Source: Bifidobacterium apousia
Lineage (GTDB): Bacteria; Actinomycetota; Actinomycetes; Actinomycetales; Bifidobacteriaceae
Length of the DNA: 64,000 nucleotides
Assembly: GCF_007559275.1 (NCBI RefSeq)
Contig: NZ_VMHK01000001.1
Location: 186,001 to 250,000 of the forward strand
Direction: 5' to 3'
Positions 48,597 through 55,866 of the stretch are shown here, one piece after another (within the stretch, counting starts at the first letter, position 1; each line of letters begins with the position of its first letter). Position numbers and translations under genes: made by a program. Under the pieces are notes generated by a model, which saw only the letters and a list, made by a program, of their open reading frames with translations, was not told the DNA's origin and did no database searches.

Positions 48597-49637
48597 TCAG
48601 CCCTGCTTGGCCTCTGCTTGGCTCGGGGTTTGTGAGGCTTTTCTGCCTGCCCTCCTCTGCCGTTGTTCCAGCTCAAGTATCCCTTCGGCCGTGTCGCGGT
48701 CGGTGGCCAGTGCAGAGATGAGCCCAGCCCGCAGACAGGCGAGGATGCTGGCAACCTTTTGCGGCCCCCAGGCCACGCCTATGACCAGAGGGATCCGCTT
48801 CAGGCGTTCGAATTCAATCGATATAGTGCGTTCACACAGGCTGGTTCGGATGTGGCGACCCTGGGCATCGATGTGATGCCCGCAGATGTGTCCCACGGCC
48901 TTGAGCTCGGTCACCTCCTTGATGAAAGCCGCATTCTCGTAGTCTTTGAAAATGTGTCCTGACCTTCCCTCCTTGACCGACCCGACTCCCACCACCGCAA
49001 CGTCGGCGTGTCCGCCCAGAGTCAGGGTGTCGGCGATCTGGCGTTCTTTGCGCATGGCTTCAGCTACGGATGTCGAAGAAAGGATCATGGGCACCGGCAG
49101 CGACGAGTAGCTGCCGCCCAGTCGCTGGGCCAGCATGCGGCATATCTCCGGTGAATCCGTCATAGGATTGGTCGGCGACAGGGAACCGATCATCTGCACG
49201 ACCTTGGACTTTGCCCAGTTTTGCAGGGGAACTTCTCGAACCGTGTAGGCGACGGCGTTGCCATTGGAGACGGTTATCAAAGAGTCGGGCCTGGTCTGCT
49301 CAACCAGGAGAGCCGCCGCGCTTCGGGGTACGACATCATACCCGGTGCATCCTTGCGGTGGCTCCGAGACCCGAGCACAACGGAGGTTGAATTGCCGGAT
49401 CAGCCTGGACTCCAGGTCTTCAAGCCGTTCCAGTGGATTCTCAATGGAGATCTTTACCAGTCCTCGCTCTTGGGCCTCTTTCAGCATCCGGGAGACGGAG
49501 GGGCGGGAATAGCCTGTCTCTGTGGCGATCTGGGACTGCAGCATGTGGTCCTGGTAGTACATGCGGGCTATGCGAAGAAGCAGCTGGACCCGCTTGCGAG
49601 CATCCGAGCTGGTCATCATCTGTAAATCGCTGAACAT
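48597..49637 (-). CDS. SorC/DeoR-type sugar-binding transcriptional regulator
   Basis: A 346-residue regulator. The N-terminal helix-turn-helix is RIARMYYQDHMLQSQIATETGYSRPSVSRMLKEAQERGLVKISI, characteristic of the SorC family; the C-terminal domain (from ~65) is the sugar-phosphate-binding Rossmann-like fold, with VSNGNAVAYTVREV and ADVAVVGVGSVKEG. It diverges from the lactonase operon and should repress it until a pathway phosphate ester appears. The first ATG (49637) lies inside one operator copy and has no ribosome site, so it could be leaderless or start at 49619. A 6-bp hairpin overlaps its stop codon. Confidence 0.9.
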   Translation of the reverse strand: MFSDLQMMTSSDARKRVQLLLRIARMYYQDHMLQSQIATETGYSRPSVSRMLKEAQERGLVKISIENPLERLEDLESRLIRQFNLRCARVSEPPQGCTGYDVVPRSAAALLVEQTRPDSLITVSNGNAVAYTVREVPLQNWAKSKVVQMIGSLSPTNPMTDSPEICRMLAQRLGGSYSSLPVPMILSSTSVAEAMRKERQIADTLTLGGHADVAVVGVGSVKEGRSGHIFKDYENAAFIKEVTELKAVGHICGHHIDAQGRHIRTSLCERTISIEFERLKRIPLVIGVAWGPQKVASILACLRAGLISALATDRDTAEGILELEQRQRRAGRKASQTPSQAEAKQG

Positions 49638-49644
49638 ATGTACA
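49631..49644. promoter_or_regulatory. Operator copy 1 (TGAACATATGTACA) for the SorC-type regulator
   Basis: A near-palindromic 14-mer at the regulator's own start. A 13-base exact inverted copy occurs at 49750-49762. Two matching sites in one divergent promoter region strongly suggest the binding site of the adjacent regulator, and this one would give autoregulation. Confidence 0.65.
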
Positions 49645-49701
49645 TTTTATCAGAATTCGCATACACGAGCCTAGCTGTCCCAAATGGTCTAAAGAAAGCT
49701 C

Positions 49702-49729
49702 TTGTAATGCTGGAAATGAAATATATAAA
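49702..49729 (+). promoter_or_regulatory. Candidate promoter of the lactonase operon
   Basis: TTGTAA (49702-49707) and TATAAA (49724-49729) with a 16-base spacer in AT-rich sequence. The predicted transcript start (~49736) lies just before operator copy 2 at 49750-49762, a good position for repression. Confidence 0.5.
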
Positions 49730-49749
49730 GATATAAATTTATTCTTCAA

Positions 49750-49762
49750 GTACATATGTTCA
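49750..49762. promoter_or_regulatory. Operator copy 2 (GTACATATGTTCA) for the SorC-type regulator
   Basis: The exact reverse complement of bases 49631-49643. It lies 120 bases before the lactonase start and just downstream of the candidate promoter. Confidence 0.65.
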
Positions 49763-49813
49763 TCGATATCCTTGTTGTTCTCTGATGGCTCCCATAGTCT
49801 GTTTCCTGTCAAA

Positions 49814-49845
49814 GGCACCGGAAGAAAAGCCTGAAGACCGGTGCC
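49814..49845 (+). promoter_or_regulatory. 8-bp hairpin in the leader of the lactonase operon
   Basis: GGCACCGG (49814-49821) and CCGGTGCC (49838-49845) are perfectly complementary, with a 16-base loop. It lies between the predicted transcript start and the ribosome site (AAGGAG) of the lactonase gene. It may stabilise the transcript or take part in control. Confidence 0.45.
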
Positions 49846-49881
49846 GCGAAGTCGCAGAGCACAAACAACAAAGGAGTTCAC

Positions 49882-50871
49882 ATGGCATTCGCACGAACCA
49901 TTCTGGGTGATGTCGATCCGAGCACGCTTGGCGTAGTCAACAGCCACGACCATCTGATCCGGGTGGGAGCCGGTGAGGTCTACCTGGACAAGGACCATCA
50001 ACTGGATTCAGTCGAGAAGGCAGAGACCGAGGCCGGCTATTTCGCCAAGGCCTCGCTGAAGTGGAGCAAGCAGGGCGGCACCGTGGTGGACATGTGCCCC
50101 ATCAACTGCGGCCGTGACATCGAGAAGCTGGCTGAGGTGGCCCGCTCGGTGGAGAACCTGCAGATCATAGGGGCCACCGGCTTCCATCGTGAGCATGTCT
50201 ACCTGGAGACCCAGTCCCACTGGATCAACCGCTACAGCGTCGATCAGATCGCCGATCTGGTCATCGCCGATATCCGTGAGGGCATCGATCGCAACGACTA
50301 CACCGGCCCCCTGGTGGATCGCAGCCCCTATAAGGCAGGTGTCATCAAGATCGGCACTGCTTACGGCGAGATCACGCCTTTCGAGCATAAGTGCATGGAG
50401 GCTGCTGCCAAGGCGGCCATCGAAACCGGCGCTCCCATCAACACACACACCACCTATGGAACCTGTGGCCTGGAACAGGCCCAGACTCTGATCGGGCTGG
50501 GGGTCCCCGCGGACCAGATCGCCATCGGCCACATTCAGCGCAATGCTGATGTCTACTACCTGGAGGAGATCCTGGATCTGGGCGTTTACCTGGAAATCGA
50601 CGGCACCAACAGGATCAAGTATCAGCCCGATTCCAACAGGATGATGGAGCTCAAGGCTTTCAAGAAAGACGGCTATGAGGACCGTATCCTCCTGGGCACG
50701 GACTCCGGCAAGCGCTCCTACCAGAAGGTCTACGGCTCTGTGAGCGGCGTGGACTACAACCCGGCAGTGGACGGCCCCCGCATGATCGCCGAAGGCTTTG
50801 ATCCCGACTACGTGGACAAGCTGCTCATCCGCAACGCCCACAACTTCTTCTCCTTCCGTAAGGAGGCCTGA
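49882..50871 (+). CDS. Phosphotriesterase-family (phospho-)lactonase
   Basis: A 329-residue TIM-barrel metal enzyme of the phosphotriesterase/amidohydrolase superfamily. All ligands of the binuclear centre are present: His22 and His24 (HDH), carbamylated Lys156 (VIKIGTAYG), His189 (NTHTTYG), His217 (IGHIQRN) and Asp274 (LGTDSG). Related proteins from Listeria, Bacillus and Mycoplasma are known phospho-furanose lactonases. Placed before UlaD- and UlaE-like genes, it most likely opens a sugar-lactone phosphate, the step done by the unrelated UlaG in the E. coli ascorbate pathway. It starts with AAAGGAG upstream and is followed after 5 bases by the decarboxylase. Confidence 0.88.
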   Translation: MAFARTILGDVDPSTLGVVNSHDHLIRVGAGEVYLDKDHQLDSVEKAETEAGYFAKASLKWSKQGGTVVDMCPINCGRDIEKLAEVARSVENLQIIGATGFHREHVYLETQSHWINRYSVDQIADLVIADIREGIDRNDYTGPLVDRSPYKAGVIKIGTAYGEITPFEHKCMEAAAKAAIETGAPINTHTTYGTCGLEQAQTLIGLGVPADQIAIGHIQRNADVYYLEEILDLGVYLEIDGTNRIKYQPDSNRMMELKAFKKDGYEDRILLGTDSGKRSYQKVYGSVSGVDYNPAVDGPRMIAEGFDPDYVDKLLIRNAHNFFSFRKEA

Positions 50872-50876
50872 GCGCG

Positions 50877-51551
50877 ATGGCAGCAGACAAGACCCTGGAA
50901 CGCCCCCAGCTTCAGATCGCGCTGGACACCTTTGATATGCCCTCGGCCCTGAGGCCTCTGAATGCGGCCGTCAGCCAAGTGGATGTCATCGAGTGCGGAA
51001 CGGTCCTGATCATCGCCGAAGGGCTGAGAGCCGTGCGCGAGATCCGTGCTCTCTATCCCAATAAGACCATCCTGGCTGATGTCAGGATCGCCGAGGCTGG
51101 TGCGGTCATCTCCCGCGCCTGCTTCGAGGCGGGTGCCAGCTGGGTCTCGGTGGTCGCCGGGGCCAGCATGACCACGGTCGAGCAGGTGGTGAAGGTGGCC
51201 CAGGAGTTCGGCGGTGAGGTCCAGATTGAGCTGGGTGAAACCTACGATCCCGAACAGGCGCGCGAATGGCGGCGACTTGGAGCTACCCAGGTCATCGTCC
51301 ATCGTTCTCGCGACGCTGAAGCGGCCGGAAAGCTGACCTGGGGGGAGGACGACAAGGATCGCATCCGCCAGCTGCATCAGATGGGCTTCAAGGTCACTGT
51401 GACCGGCGGGGTCACGGCCAAGGATCTGCCCTTCTTCCAAGGAGTTCCCGTCGGAGTGGTGATCTCCGGCCGCGGCATTGTCAAGGCTGACGACCCCCTG
51501 GCCGCTGCGACCGAGCTGCGGGAGACCATCGGCAGGGTGTGGCCGCAATGA
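50877..51551 (+). CDS. ulaD: UlaD-like 3-keto-L-gulonate-6-phosphate decarboxylase with altered active site
   Basis: A 224-residue enzyme of the OMP-decarboxylase suprafamily, alignable with E. coli UlaD over its whole length. Matching residues include Asp17, Glu39 (E. coli Glu33) and the VHRSRDAEAAG stretch with the Arg139 equivalent, and TVTGG near the C-terminus. However the catalytic D-x-K-x-x-D motif reads LADVRIAEAG: Asp68 is kept, but Lys64 and Asp67 of E. coli become Arg70 and Glu73. The family reaction is loss of CO2 from 3-keto-L-gulonate 6-phosphate to give L-xylulose 5-phosphate. The substitutions suggest a different substrate or mechanism. The stop overlaps the epimerase start. 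Confidence 0.85.
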   Translation: MAADKTLERPQLQIALDTFDMPSALRPLNAAVSQVDVIECGTVLIIAEGLRAVREIRALYPNKTILADVRIAEAGAVISRACFEAGASWVSVVAGASMTTVEQVVKVAQEFGGEVQIELGETYDPEQAREWRRLGATQVIVHRSRDAEAAGKLTWGEDDKDRIRQLHQMGFKVTVTGGVTAKDLPFFQGVPVGVVISGRGIVKADDPLAAATELRETIGRVWPQ

Positions 51552-52417
51552 GCGGCAGCATCACCCTGGGCATCTATGAGAAGGCCCTGAAGTCCCCCGC
51601 CGAGCCGGATGATTGGGATGCGTTCATGTCCCAGGTGGCGGCCGATGGGTTCACCTTCATGGATCTGTCCATTGACGAAAGCGACAAGCGGATGGCCCGC
51701 TTGGACTGGACGGCTGCCCAGGCTTCCACCTTCCGTCAGGCCGCTGACCGCCAGGGCGTCCAGGTCGGAGGGATCTGCCTGAGCTGCCACCGTAAGGTTG
51801 GCCCTGGCTCGGCCGATCCGGCTGTCCGCCGTCAGGCCTATGAGATCTTCCTCAAGGCGATCGATCTGGCTCATGAGGCGGGCATTCCCCTGATTCAGGT
51901 AGCCGGTTACTACGCCTACTACGAGGACCCTGATCCCGACCAGCGCGCCAGGTATGTGGAGGTTTTGGCCAGGGCGGCTGAGTATGCGGCCCAGGCCGGC
52001 GTCATGCTGGGCATAGAGAATGTGGATGGCAATGACATCACCTCCATCACCAAGGGTCTGGCCATCTGCGATCAGGTCGGGTCCTCCTGGTTGAGCATGT
52101 ACCCGGATATCGGCAACCTCTACGAGCAGGAGCTGGATGCCGTGGCTGAGCTCAGGGCTGGAGCCGGCAGAATGCTGGCCATCCATGTCAAGGATGTGCT
52201 CCCAGGGCAGCCGCGTCGCATCACCATGGGCGAGGGCTGTGCCGATTTTCCCACGGCTTTCGCCGAGCTGGCCCGGCAATCCTGGTCGGGGCGGATCATG
52301 CTGGAGATGTGGAACGATGATTCGGACCAGGCCGATCAGATCGTCGCGAATGCAAGGAAGAAAGTGGAAACCTGGCTGCGAGGGGCTGACATGGAGGTGC
52401 TTGACCCCAGAGGCTGA
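51548..52417 (+). CDS. ulaE: UlaE-like L-xylulose-5-phosphate 3-epimerase
   Basis: A 289-residue TIM-barrel epimerase. The start MSGSITLGIYEKALKSP matches the beginning of UlaE/SgaU proteins, and conserved segments are GGICLSCHRK, LIQVAGYYAYYE, LGIENVDGN (metal-binding Glu), YPDIGNLYE (Asp), HVKD (His) and LEMWNDD (Glu), giving the usual E-D-H-E metal centre. The family interconverts L-xylulose 5-phosphate and L-ribulose 5-phosphate. It overlaps the decarboxylase gene by 4 bases. About 210 bases separate it from the kinase gene, with a G/C-rich dyad in between. Confidence 0.88.
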   Translation: MSGSITLGIYEKALKSPAEPDDWDAFMSQVAADGFTFMDLSIDESDKRMARLDWTAAQASTFRQAADRQGVQVGGICLSCHRKVGPGSADPAVRRQAYEIFLKAIDLAHEAGIPLIQVAGYYAYYEDPDPDQRARYVEVLARAAEYAAQAGVMLGIENVDGNDITSITKGLAICDQVGSSWLSMYPDIGNLYEQELDAVAELRAGAGRMLAIHVKDVLPGQPRRITMGEGCADFPTAFAELARQSWSGRIMLEMWNDDSDQADQIVANARKKVETWLRGADMEVLDPRG

Positions 52418-52455
52418 AGTACAGGTCGCAGCGGTCACGGTTGCGACCCGGGGGT

Positions 52456-52487
52456 GGTTGTGCCGGTCCTCCACCCCCTTGGCATCG
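52456..52487 (+). terminator. 8-bp G/C hairpin after the epimerase gene
   Basis: GGGGGTGG and CCACCCCC pair around a 13-base loop, about 35 bases after the epimerase stop; no T-run follows. It may attenuate transcription between the enzymes and the kinase/transporter genes. Another small dyad (GTCGCA/TGCGAC) lies just before it. Confidence 0.4.
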
Positions 52488-52629
52488 GCAGGGAGGCAAT
52501 GATGCCAGCGGTCGCCCCTGGAGGGTCGACCCGATCGGTGCGAGTTTGAATGTGACAGGTCGTAATACGGAATGAAGCGGACGTCGTGGTCCATTCTAGA
52601 GAAGCGGCCATGTAGACAAGGAGCAAGTG

Positions 52630-53586
52630 ATGGCAGAACATGCATATGACCTTTCGACCATAGGAGAGGGGCAGATCAGGCTCACGGTCAGGAGGGGGGA
52701 GCGGCTGATGAACGCCCGGTCGGTCCTGATGAATCCAGCCTGTTCCGAGGCCAATGTGGCTGGAGTGTTGGCTCAGCTTCAGCGCAAGACCCTGTGGACC
52801 TCTTCGCTGCCGGAGGGGGATTTGGGCGAATACGTCCTGAGCGAGTACAGGTCTGTGGGTGTTGATCTGAGCACCATGGTCCGCAAGCCGGCCAGCCGAA
52901 TCGCCCTCTACTTCATGGAGCCGGGCGAACCCCCCATGCCGGCCAACGTCATCTACGACCGCGAGTACACCCCCTTCAGGTCGACGGGGATCGAGGATTA
53001 CGACTGGGACCGGATGCTGGACACCCGCCTGCTCTTCCTGACCGGCATCACCGCGGCCCTGACCGATACCACCGCTCAGGTGGTGACTTATGCGGCCGAG
53101 CAGGCGGAGAAGCGCGGCATCGACATCGCCTTTGACGTGAACTTCCGCAGCAAGCTTTGGTCTGGTGACCAGGCCAGAAAGGTTTTGGAGCCCATCGCTC
53201 ATAAGGCCCGCATTCTCTTCTGCTCCATCAAGGACGCCAAAAGCGTCTTCGGAATCGAGGGGACAGGCGAGGAGGTCTGCGAGCAGCTCTACCAGCGCTT
53301 CGGCAATGAGTACATTGTTTCCACCAATCACTTGGATGGTCCTTACTTGAGAACCTCCAAGGGAATCAAGAAGTACGTCACCACGACGGTTCCGGTGGTG
53401 GATCGTCCCGGCGCCGGGGATTCCTTCGTGGCTGCCACCCTCCACGGCTTCCTCTCCGATGATGTGGAGTGCGGTGTCAGGTGGGGACAGCGGGCCGCCG
53501 AGTATGCCCTGACGCATATGGGCGATCTGACCCGTATCCGCGCCCAGGAACTGGATATTCCGCTGGGCGGGGATATCAACCGTTGA
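52630..53586 (+). CDS. PfkB-family carbohydrate kinase (KdgK-like)
   Basis: A 318-residue ribokinase-superfamily kinase. Substrate-binding N-terminal features such as NVAGVLAQLQRKTLWTSSLPEGDLGEYVLSEYRSVGVDLS are as in 2-keto-3-deoxygluconate kinases, and the catalytic DRPGAGDSFVAATLHGFL carries the nucleotide loop and the base Asp (GAGD). KdgK-like enzymes phosphorylate sugar acids. In this cluster it most likely phosphorylates the imported lactone or sugar acid, replacing the PTS that does so in the classical ascorbate pathway. ATG 52630 is used (a GTG lies just before); AAGGAG is upstream. Confidence 0.9.
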   Translation: MAEHAYDLSTIGEGQIRLTVRRGERLMNARSVLMNPACSEANVAGVLAQLQRKTLWTSSLPEGDLGEYVLSEYRSVGVDLSTMVRKPASRIALYFMEPGEPPMPANVIYDREYTPFRSTGIEDYDWDRMLDTRLLFLTGITAALTDTTAQVVTYAAEQAEKRGIDIAFDVNFRSKLWSGDQARKVLEPIAHKARILFCSIKDAKSVFGIEGTGEEVCEQLYQRFGNEYIVSTNHLDGPYLRTSKGIKKYVTTTVPVVDRPGAGDSFVAATLHGFLSDDVECGVRWGQRAAEYALTHMGDLTRIRAQELDIPLGGDINR

Positions 53587-53717
53587 CCGTTCCTTCATGA
53601 TCCAAGGCCGCCGCAGCATTCTCCAAGGAAGGAGAGAGCGACCTGGATCCTCAGGTCAGATCCGTACGGGGGTCGGGCCGCCATCATCATGACCATCCGA
53701 GAAAGAAAAGCACCATT

Positions 53718-55079
53718 ATGAGTGATACACATGTCACACAGGCCGGGGAGACACTGACCGCATACGAGCAGATAGACGCTCGTCCCCTGACCGGACATCA
53801 GAAAAGCATCATCGGCCTGGCCATAGCCGGCAACATATCCGAATTCTTCGATATGTTCCTGATTGGTTTCGTGGTCTCCCTCCTGACTTCGGCCTGGCAC
53901 CTGACCGGGGTTTCCGCTGGAATCATCCTGGCCTGCTCCGGGCTGGGCACGGTCATCGGATCCATCCTCTGGGGGCGTTTGGCCGATCGCTTCGGCCGCA
54001 AGCATGCCTTCCAGTGGTGTGTTCTCTGCTTCGTGGTCTTCACGGCCCTGTCAGTCTTCCTGCCTGACGGTGCCTGGATCCTGCTGGCCATCCTGCGCAT
54101 CGGCGTGGGTGTCGGCGTAGGCGGCCTGAACATCATCTCCATCCCCTACGTCCAGGAATTCGTGCCGGCCAGACAGCGCGGCATGCTCTCCGGCCTGGCC
54201 TCGGTCTTCATTCCTCTGGGTCTGCTCCTGGGATCCGTCTCGCAGAGCCTGATTGGCGACAATTGGCGCGTGCTGGTGGCCCTGGGCGTTATCCCTGTCC
54301 TTCTTCTGTTCTGGTTGGCGACGGTGCCGGAGTCCCCTCGTTTCTATCAGAGCGTGGGACGTGACAATGATGCCCGCAAGGCCTTGGCATGGGCTCTTGA
54401 GCTTCCCGCGGACCAGGTCGGCGCCCTGCCCAAGGTCGAGCAGGAGCAGAAGGCCAGTTATCGTCTGCTTCTGTCCAAGCATCTAAGGCCGCTGGTCATC
54501 ATTTCGGTTGGCTCCTTCTGCTTCATTCTGGGTTCCTTCGCCATCCAATCCTGGGGTCAAACGCTGATGAAGGATGCTTTCGGCTTCTCAACGCAGATGG
54601 TGGCCTACCTGTTCATGGGCGTCTCCGTGGCCGACTGCATCGGCAGATTCGGCTCTGCCTGGCTGGCTGACATCATCGGTCGGCGTTGGACCATGTTCTC
54701 CTTCGGCATCATCGGGGCTCTGGGATGCTTCTACGCGGCCTTCTTCCACAATTCCGGCTGGCAGTTCTACATCGCTGTCCTGGTCATCATGACCTTCGCC
54801 GACGGTGTCTTCGGCATTCTCAACGCTTTCGGCGGCGAGCAGTTACCCAACGATGTTCGTTCCACCGGACTGGGGCTGGGATACGGCATCGGCGCCACGG
54901 CCAAGATCGTAGGCCCTATATTCATGGGGCTCCTGGTGGGCGGCGACTATGTCTCCCAGCACATCAACATCGGCGTTGTCACCACGGCATTCACCTTCTT
55001 CGGTGTCTGCCTGGTCATCGGCGCTGTTATTTATCTCTTTGCCCAGGAGACCAAGGGCAAGGATCTGGAAAGCCTGTGA
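53718..55079 (+). CDS. MFS transporter (sugar/metabolite:H+ symporter type)
   Basis: A 453-residue, twelve-helix MFS permease. The first-half signature WGRLADRFGRKHAF, the conserved SIPYVQEFVPARQRGMLSGLA and the helix-6 ending PESPRFYQSVGR mark the sugar-porter/metabolite symporter branch. The second half has SAWLADIIGRRWTMF. The N-terminal ~35 residues are cytoplasmic. As it lies inside the lactonase/decarboxylase/kinase cluster, it is the probable importer of the pathway substrate in unphosphorylated form. Confidence 0.9.
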   Translation: MSDTHVTQAGETLTAYEQIDARPLTGHQKSIIGLAIAGNISEFFDMFLIGFVVSLLTSAWHLTGVSAGIILACSGLGTVIGSILWGRLADRFGRKHAFQWCVLCFVVFTALSVFLPDGAWILLAILRIGVGVGVGGLNIISIPYVQEFVPARQRGMLSGLASVFIPLGLLLGSVSQSLIGDNWRVLVALGVIPVLLLFWLATVPESPRFYQSVGRDNDARKALAWALELPADQVGALPKVEQEQKASYRLLLSKHLRPLVIISVGSFCFILGSFAIQSWGQTLMKDAFGFSTQMVAYLFMGVSVADCIGRFGSAWLADIIGRRWTMFSFGIIGALGCFYAAFFHNSGWQFYIAVLVIMTFADGVFGILNAFGGEQLPNDVRSTGLGLGYGIGATAKIVGPIFMGLLVGGDYVSQHINIGVVTTAFTFFGVCLVIGAVIYLFAQETKGKDLESL

Positions 55080-55173
55080 GGATACGCAGCAGGGTCTGTG
55101 CACGCAGGTAAGCAAACCGGGCCGGCTTTTCGCAGGAAGGGTCGGCCCCTTATTGGGAATGGTGGTGGTTCGT

Positions 55174-55866
55174 ATGACGTCCTTGGCTGATTTTTCTGAT
55201 GAGGTACGTGTCGAAGTGGGATTGGTTCGTGAGCATGTTGCCGCCCTGCATGAGCAGTTGATCAAGTGGGGGCTGGTGGTGTGGACGGCGGGGAATGTCT
55301 CGCAACGCCTGCATTCAGCCGACTTGCTGGTGATCAAGCCATCCGGGGTGCGCTACGAGCAGTTAACGCCGGAATCAATGGTGGTCACGGATCTGGAAGG
55401 GCATGTGGTGGACGGATCTGCCGCCCCCTCCTCGGATGTGTTTTCGCACGCCTACATCTACCGGCACATGCCTGAAGTATTTGGCGTGGTGCATACGCAT
55501 TCGACCTTTGCTACGGCCTTTGCTGCAGTGGGCCGGTCAATTCCATGCGTATTGACGATGATGGGTGACGAGTTCGGTGGTCCGGTGCCGGTGGGTCCCT
55601 TCGCCTTGATTGGTTCGGACCAGATAGGTCGTGGGGTGGTCGAAACCCTGGCGGAACATCCGGGCTGTCCTGCGGTGCTCATGCGCAATCACGGCCCCTT
55701 CACGGTCGGTGCTGATGCTGAGGCTGCGGTCAAGGCGGCGGCGATGACGGAGGAGGTGGCGCGTACGGTGTGGGCTGCTGAGCAAATCGGTACGCCTGTG
55801 CCATTGTCCGACGAGGATGTGGCCAGTCTGAACGACCGTTATCAGCACGTGTACGGCCAGCACTAA
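55174..55866 (+). CDS. AraD/UlaF-like L-ribulose-5-phosphate 4-epimerase
   Basis: A 230-residue class II aldolase-fold protein, the same length as E. coli AraD and UlaF. Landmarks are LVVWTAGNVSQRL, KPSGVRYEQLTPESMVVTDL, the zinc ligands H-T-H in VVHTHSTFATAFAAVG, and MRNHGPFTVGADAEAAVKAA with the third His. The family interconverts L-ribulose 5-phosphate and D-xylulose 5-phosphate. With the UlaD- and UlaE-like genes upstream it would complete the route to D-xylulose 5-phosphate. ATG 55174 is preferred; 55159 is possible. Confidence 0.88.
   Translation: MTSLADFSDEVRVEVGLVREHVAALHEQLIKWGLVVWTAGNVSQRLHSADLLVIKPSGVRYEQLTPESMVVTDLEGHVVDGSAAPSSDVFSHAYIYRHMPEVFGVVHTHSTFATAFAAVGRSIPCVLTMMGDEFGGPVPVGPFALIGSDQIGRGVVETLAEHPGCPAVLMRNHGPFTVGADAEAAVKAAAMTEEVARTVWAAEQIGTPVPLSDEDVASLNDRYQHVYGQH

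Follow-up and report, generated by a model that had tools for sequence, protein, structure and literature searches.

The locus described here raises the question of whether a bacterium can use L-ascorbate through a kinase in place of a phosphotransferase system (PTS). The window, a 64,000-nucleotide stretch of contig NZ_VMHK01000001.1 of the bee-gut-type bacterium Bifidobacterium apousia (positions 186,001 to 250,000), carries at 48597-55866 a SorC-type regulator gene on the minus strand that diverges from six co-directional genes on the plus strand. An initial annotation had read this cluster as a kinase-based, PTS-independent 3-keto-gulonate/ascorbate pathway. All seven open reading frames (ORFs) are present on the strands claimed, and their Pfam matches (SorC sugar-binding domain, PTE, OMPdecase/HUMPS, AP_endonuc_2, PfkB, MFS, and Aldolase_II) verify the families it had named: a regulator, an enzyme of the phosphotriesterase (PTE) fold, a UlaD-like decarboxylase, a UlaE-like epimerase, a PfkB kinase, a major facilitator superfamily (MFS) transporter, and an AraD/UlaF-like epimerase. 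As had also been stated, no dehydrogenase is found among the cluster genes by ORF list and family matches, nor is a reductase; a dehydrogenase-fed aldonate pathway was rejected on this ground. We consider it likely that this operon serves to catabolize L-ascorbate independently of a PTS, by means of a PfkB kinase and a PTE-fold lactonase, with D-xylulose-5-phosphate as the end product. From the gene set and its comparison across genomes, we infer the following route. The MFS protein would import ascorbate, and the PfkB protein would act as an L-ascorbate 6-kinase that uses ATP to phosphorylate it at O6. The PTE-fold enzyme, or elsewhere UlaG, would hydrolyze the resulting L-ascorbate-6-phosphate to 3-keto-L-gulonate-6-phosphate, which the UlaD-like enzyme would decarboxylate to L-xylulose-5-phosphate. 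Epimerization at C3 by UlaE would then give L-ribulose-5-phosphate and epimerization at C4 by AraD would give D-xylulose-5-phosphate, which would enter the bifidobacterial phosphoketolase shunt.

The proposed chemistry from ascorbate-6-phosphate onward is that of the E. coli ula regulon (UlaABC PTS, UlaG, UlaD, UlaE, and UlaF), and homologs of UlaD, UlaE, and UlaF are found here with scores above NCBIfam subfamily cut-offs (Table 1). The second gene of the operon passes the cut-off for 3-dehydro-L-gulonate-6-phosphate decarboxylase, the third that for L-ribulose-5-phosphate 3-epimerase, and the last that for an L-ribulose-5-phosphate 4-epimerase. The solved structure nearest to the decarboxylase is E. 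coli 3-keto-L-gulonate-6-phosphate decarboxylase (KGPDC); 3-hexulose-6-phosphate synthase was rejected as its identity, with 149 bits against a cut-off of 200 and with R139 and T169 kept. In the UlaE-like epimerase, the metal ligands align with those of E. coli UlaE (3cqh) and are conserved, as are the equivalents of the His ligands and Asp120 of E. coli AraD (1jdi) in the AraD-like epimerase. L-xylulose-5-phosphate corresponds to the L-threo C4-C5 configuration of ascorbate, and because the two epimerases in series fit this intermediate, they point to L-ascorbate. D-erythorbate was rejected as the substrate since it would yield D-ribulose-5-phosphate, with no need for UlaE or AraD. What is new relative to the known pathway is the use of MFS and PfkB proteins for the PTS (for the kinase, E. 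coli yia offers a precedent), of a PTE-fold lactonase for UlaG, and of a decarboxylase with a DxRxxE motif; the regulator is also of the SorC type rather than UlaR. The nearest NCBIfam subfamily of the transporter is aromatic acid/H+ symport, although the score falls under its cut-off.

It is the swap-in of UlaG that most supports, by comparative genomics, the annotated route to D-xylulose-5-phosphate. UlaG is absent from all 151 Bifidobacteriaceae genomes, the host included, and in the cluster a PTE-fold enzyme would take its place, as the annotation had proposed. In related kinase-type clusters without a PTE gene, a true UlaG (L-ascorbate-6-phosphate lactonase) is present at 586-659 bits (cut-off 306), one of these proteins matching E. 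coli UlaG (2wyl) over its full length with 584 bits. Among the loci with a DxRxxE decarboxylase, 76 carry PTE only, 11 UlaG only, one both, and three, all cut by contig ends, neither; these counts include near-duplicates, the same genomes having been found by two tools. On the decarboxylase tree, no fewer than three changes are needed to explain the swap between PTE and UlaG. L-ascorbate-6-phosphate must be the substrate of UlaG in PTS clusters, and PTS IIA/IIC genes accompany UlaG in our PTS-type controls (L120 and L122-L125). The UlaG proteins of kinase clusters and PTS clusters interleave in the UlaG tree and have no fixed difference, all 114 shared invariant columns being identical. Their substrate should thus be the same, and the simplest reading is that kinase-cluster UlaG also acts on L-ascorbate-6-phosphate. 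With no PTS in the cluster, the PfkB kinase would then be the sole possible source of this compound.

The PTE-fold enzyme itself is compatible with a phosphorylated lactone. Its nearest solved structures, 3msr/3ovg, are Mycoplasma phospho-furanose lactonases, whose genes are linked to ula-type genes and whose known members are reported to have been assayed on D-xylono- and L-arabino-lactone-5-phosphate. The window protein has in common with them the fold, the metal ligands (H22, H24, K156, H189, H217, and D274), and the pentad R220, K246, Y247, K277, and Y280, both residue sets being invariant in 59/59 sequences; it reaches, however, only 250 bits against the equivalog cut-off of 630 for NF045706. 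The pentad aligns with K217, K244, Y245, R275, and Y278 of the phosphate site of the Mycoplasma enzymes. Since these residues are retained, together with the equivalent of the phosphate-binding Arg192 in the decarboxylase (74/74 kinase-type clusters), the comparison favors a true ascorbate kinase, acting before ring opening, over one that phosphorylates 3-keto-L-gulonate. An Erysipelotrichaceae locus (L121) has a DxKxxD decarboxylase beside a distant PTE homolog and UlaG, which resembles the Mycoplasma context.

Several observations weigh against this reading. The kinase groups with the 2-keto-3-deoxygluconate (KDG) kinases, which are its nearest solved structures and share with it the PfkB fold, the GAGD motif, and the acid-site Arg and Tyr (motif and residues invariant in 66/66), although it is only 31% identical to the Thermus thermophilus KDG kinase over the aligned part and scores below all NCBIfam equivalog cut-offs. 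Because KDG kinases act on open-chain sugar acids, 3-keto-L-gulonate readily suggests itself as another candidate substrate, and the same pathway could run in reverse order, with the lactonase opening free ascorbate before PfkB phosphorylates 3-keto-L-gulonate, like LyxK. The precedent is E. coli yiaK-S/sgb (LyxK, SgbH, SgbU, and SgbE), a kinase-based route via 3-keto-L-gulonate in which SgbH, SgbU, and SgbE are homologs of UlaD, UlaE, and UlaF and an ATP kinase likewise takes the place of the PTS. That system differs in having a reductase (YiaK) that makes 3-keto-L-gulonate, a LyxK of the FGGY type, TRAP import, and no lactonase, whereas the window cluster has PfkB and MFS proteins and lacks a reductase. 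Given that kinase-cluster UlaG is indistinguishable at its invariant columns from proteins that must take a phosphorylated lactone, and that the PTE keeps its phosphate-site-like pentad, we regard the reverse order as unlikely. The decarboxylase also departs from its family: the Lys and Asp of the hallmark DxKxxD are replaced (K64R and D67E, E. coli numbering) in all 74 kinase-type clusters scored, against six of six UlaG/PTS-type controls that retain both. Position H136 is Lys in 48 of the 74 and His in 26; the aligned Bifidobacteriaceae rows all have His. Its KGPDC membership is nevertheless indicated by the profile match, by Arg192, by Glu112 and Thr169 (invariant), by R139 (73/74), and by the other active-site residues checked, which are kept. 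Moreover, a Propionibacteriaceae genome (L119:1998-9596) has a single predicted SorC regulon that contains PTE as well as UlaG, and for this reason the PTE may have an extra role. Together with the pentono-lactone phosphates that relatives of the PTE take, these features would suit a relative of ascorbate, such as 2,3-diketo-L-gulonate, a breakdown product of an ascorbate ester or glycoside, or another L-threo 3-keto-acid lactone. The cluster lacks a reductase or dehydrogenase, though, UlaG can stand in for the PTE, and the two epimerases fix the sugar configuration, which makes such a substrate rather improbable. Finally, Bifidobacterium indicum (L052/G058) has a cluster with PTE, UlaD, PfkB, and MFS genes, yet no UlaE homolog was found at E ≤ 1e-8 in its single-contig genome; the pathway may be decaying there, or another epimerase may be in use.

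The PTS genes of the host form the remaining point against a kinase-based ascorbate pathway. The annotated absence of UlaABC holds for the cluster and fails for the genome, in which two UlaABC-like PTS operons are located 20-35 kb from the cluster and 8-20 kb past the right end of the window. One (C6:257900-262200) lies with LacI, HPr, and EI genes, and the other (C6:267800-270100) with genes for a GntR regulator and an amidohydrolase-like protein. Beside these operons, the genome is without UlaG, and its sole UlaD-like gene is that of the cluster, which also holds its single PTE gene (both counts genome-wide). With two PF03611 operons at hand, a PTS could supply ascorbate-6-phosphate while the MFS protein and the kinase handle another compound, such as L-xylulose. 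However, a PF03611 IIC is absent from the whole genome in 9 of the 24 cluster-bearing Bifidobacteriaceae, several PTS-bearing genomes lack the cluster, and no exact copy of the SorC operator stands at the host PTS operons; the UlaABC-like operons are therefore not tied to the pathway. The kinase and MFS genes are, on the other hand, present in nearly all clusters, and we find this division of labor very improbable. PTS genes are missing from the kinase clusters, with the exception of B. psychraerophilum and its separate PTS operon ~3 kb downstream, in agreement with the PTS independence that had been proposed for an ascorbate kinase route. We know of no ATP-dependent ascorbate kinase. The exact phrase "ascorbate kinase" is absent from a corpus of 5.39 million open-access papers. 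Within the literature searched, nothing was found on 3-keto-L-gulonate together with a PfkB kinase and a lactonase, on lactone-5-phosphate PTE lactonases, or on a bifidobacterial 3-keto-L-gulonate-6-phosphate decarboxylase.

A search for the same gene set in other bifidobacteria, as the annotation had suggested, showed that 24 of the 151 Bifidobacteriaceae genomes carry a member of this PTE family, adjoined by SorC and UlaD at every such locus. The set is conserved in Bifidobacterium, Bombiscardovia, and many other Actinomycetota, so the grouping is far from chance. In a scan of named genomes, it recurred in Cutibacterium, Actinomyces, Corynebacterium, Propionibacteriaceae, Phycicoccus, Micropruina, Pleomorphomonas, Acetobacteraceae, and Chloroflexota, spanning Actinomycetota, Chloroflexota, and Alphaproteobacteria. 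The host decarboxylase has its closest named relatives in B. mizhiense, B. mellis, and B. asteroides. Chloroflexota clusters give no MFS match and contain ABC permease genes. Some bifidobacteria have no UlaE beside UlaD and carry a different UlaE (37-39% identical) 3′ of the MFS gene, which is what a need for the epimerase step would predict. It seems reasonably probable from these comparisons that these three groups share a widespread, undescribed ascorbate pathway built on a PfkB-family L-ascorbate 6-kinase, in which a PTE-fold L-ascorbate-6-phosphate lactonase is a non-orthologous stand-in for UlaG and the decarboxylase uses Arg/Glu where the OMP decarboxylase suprafamily has its hallmark Lys/Asp.

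Regulation was approached through a GAACATATGTTC-like palindrome. Of 60 clusters, 41 have it upstream of PTE when ≤2 mismatches are allowed, compared with 2% of shuffled regions. It is often doubled, and many relatives retain a second copy at a distance of ~95-120 bp. SorC may bind the two predicted operators at this locus and control the operon. The same operator pair is predicted in L119 before both its PfkB-MFS-UlaG and its PTE-UlaD-UlaE-AraD operons. The motif also occurs elsewhere: its strict form is found at four places in the host genome, two of them here, one in the interval that separates a deoC-like gene from the gene of a second SorC-type regulator, and one where a reading frame begins. 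Scans for sigma-70 promoters and terminators gave results close to chance. In a regulon study of ten genomes, the ascorbate regulator SgaR2 and the L-xylulose regulator SgaR were predicted only in B. bifidum, and its main text does not describe this gene set (PMC4746261).

Table 1. Predicted features of the cluster, in window coordinates.
Feature	Position	Strand	Support
SorC/DeoR-type transcriptional regulator, divergent from operon	48597..49637	-	PF04198 196.7 bits; divergent in most clusters
Predicted SorC operator 1, GAACATATGTAC	49632..49643	.	Palindrome upstream of PTE in relatives
Predicted SorC operator 2, GTACATATGTTC	49750..49761	.	Same palindrome type
PTE-fold (amidohydrolase) phospho-lactonase, proposed L-ascorbate-6-phosphate lactonase in UlaG's place	49882..50871	+	PF02126 159.7 bits
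UlaD-like decarboxylase	50877..51551	+	PRK13306 255 bits, cut-off 250
UlaE-like L-xylulose/L-ribulose-5-phosphate 3-epimerase	51548..52417	+	PRK13209 320 bits, cut-off 317
PfkB kinase, KDG-kinase-like, proposed L-ascorbate 6-kinase	52630..53586	+	PF00294 93 bits
MFS acid/H+ symporter-like transporter, proposed ascorbate importer	53718..55079	+	MFS_1 167 bits
AraD/UlaF-like L-ribulose-5-phosphate 4-epimerase	55174..55866	+	PRK06557 357 bits, cut-off 251

The likelier starts are the ATG codons at 51548 for UlaE, 52630 for PfkB, and 55174 for AraD. For UlaE, the ATG is preferred to the alternative GTG at 51539 because it forms an ATGA overlap with the UlaD stop. SorC could start at ATG 49619, in which case operator 1 would stand upstream of its gene. 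The operon had no match in the plasmid collection.

Two further arrangements of the cluster were observed. Phycicoccus flavus has it twice, on two scaffolds (L066 and L067) with identical decarboxylase and UlaG proteins, which may reflect a recent duplication or an assembly effect. A diverged second copy of the seven-gene set is found at L044 (G055:C27:38000-55000) and L045 (G101:C1:957000-974000), with identities to the window proteins of 32-33% for PTE, 36-43% for UlaD, and 37% for PfkB. Its decarboxylase reads DxRxxR, with T169A and R192S, and may take an unphosphorylated substrate, as the phosphate-binding Arg is lost; its placement in the UlaD tree was discarded as a long-branch artefact.

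If the proposed pathway is true, bacteria can use vitamin C without a PTS, and the clusters sampled include bee, primate, skin, and oral genera (Bifidobacterium, Cutibacterium, and Actinomyces). It would also assign a substrate to a family of PTE-fold enzymes noted for their promiscuity, and the DxRxxE decarboxylases would provide a natural test of the need for the catalytic Lys and Asp in the suprafamily of KGPDC and orotidine 5′-monophosphate decarboxylase (OMPDC).

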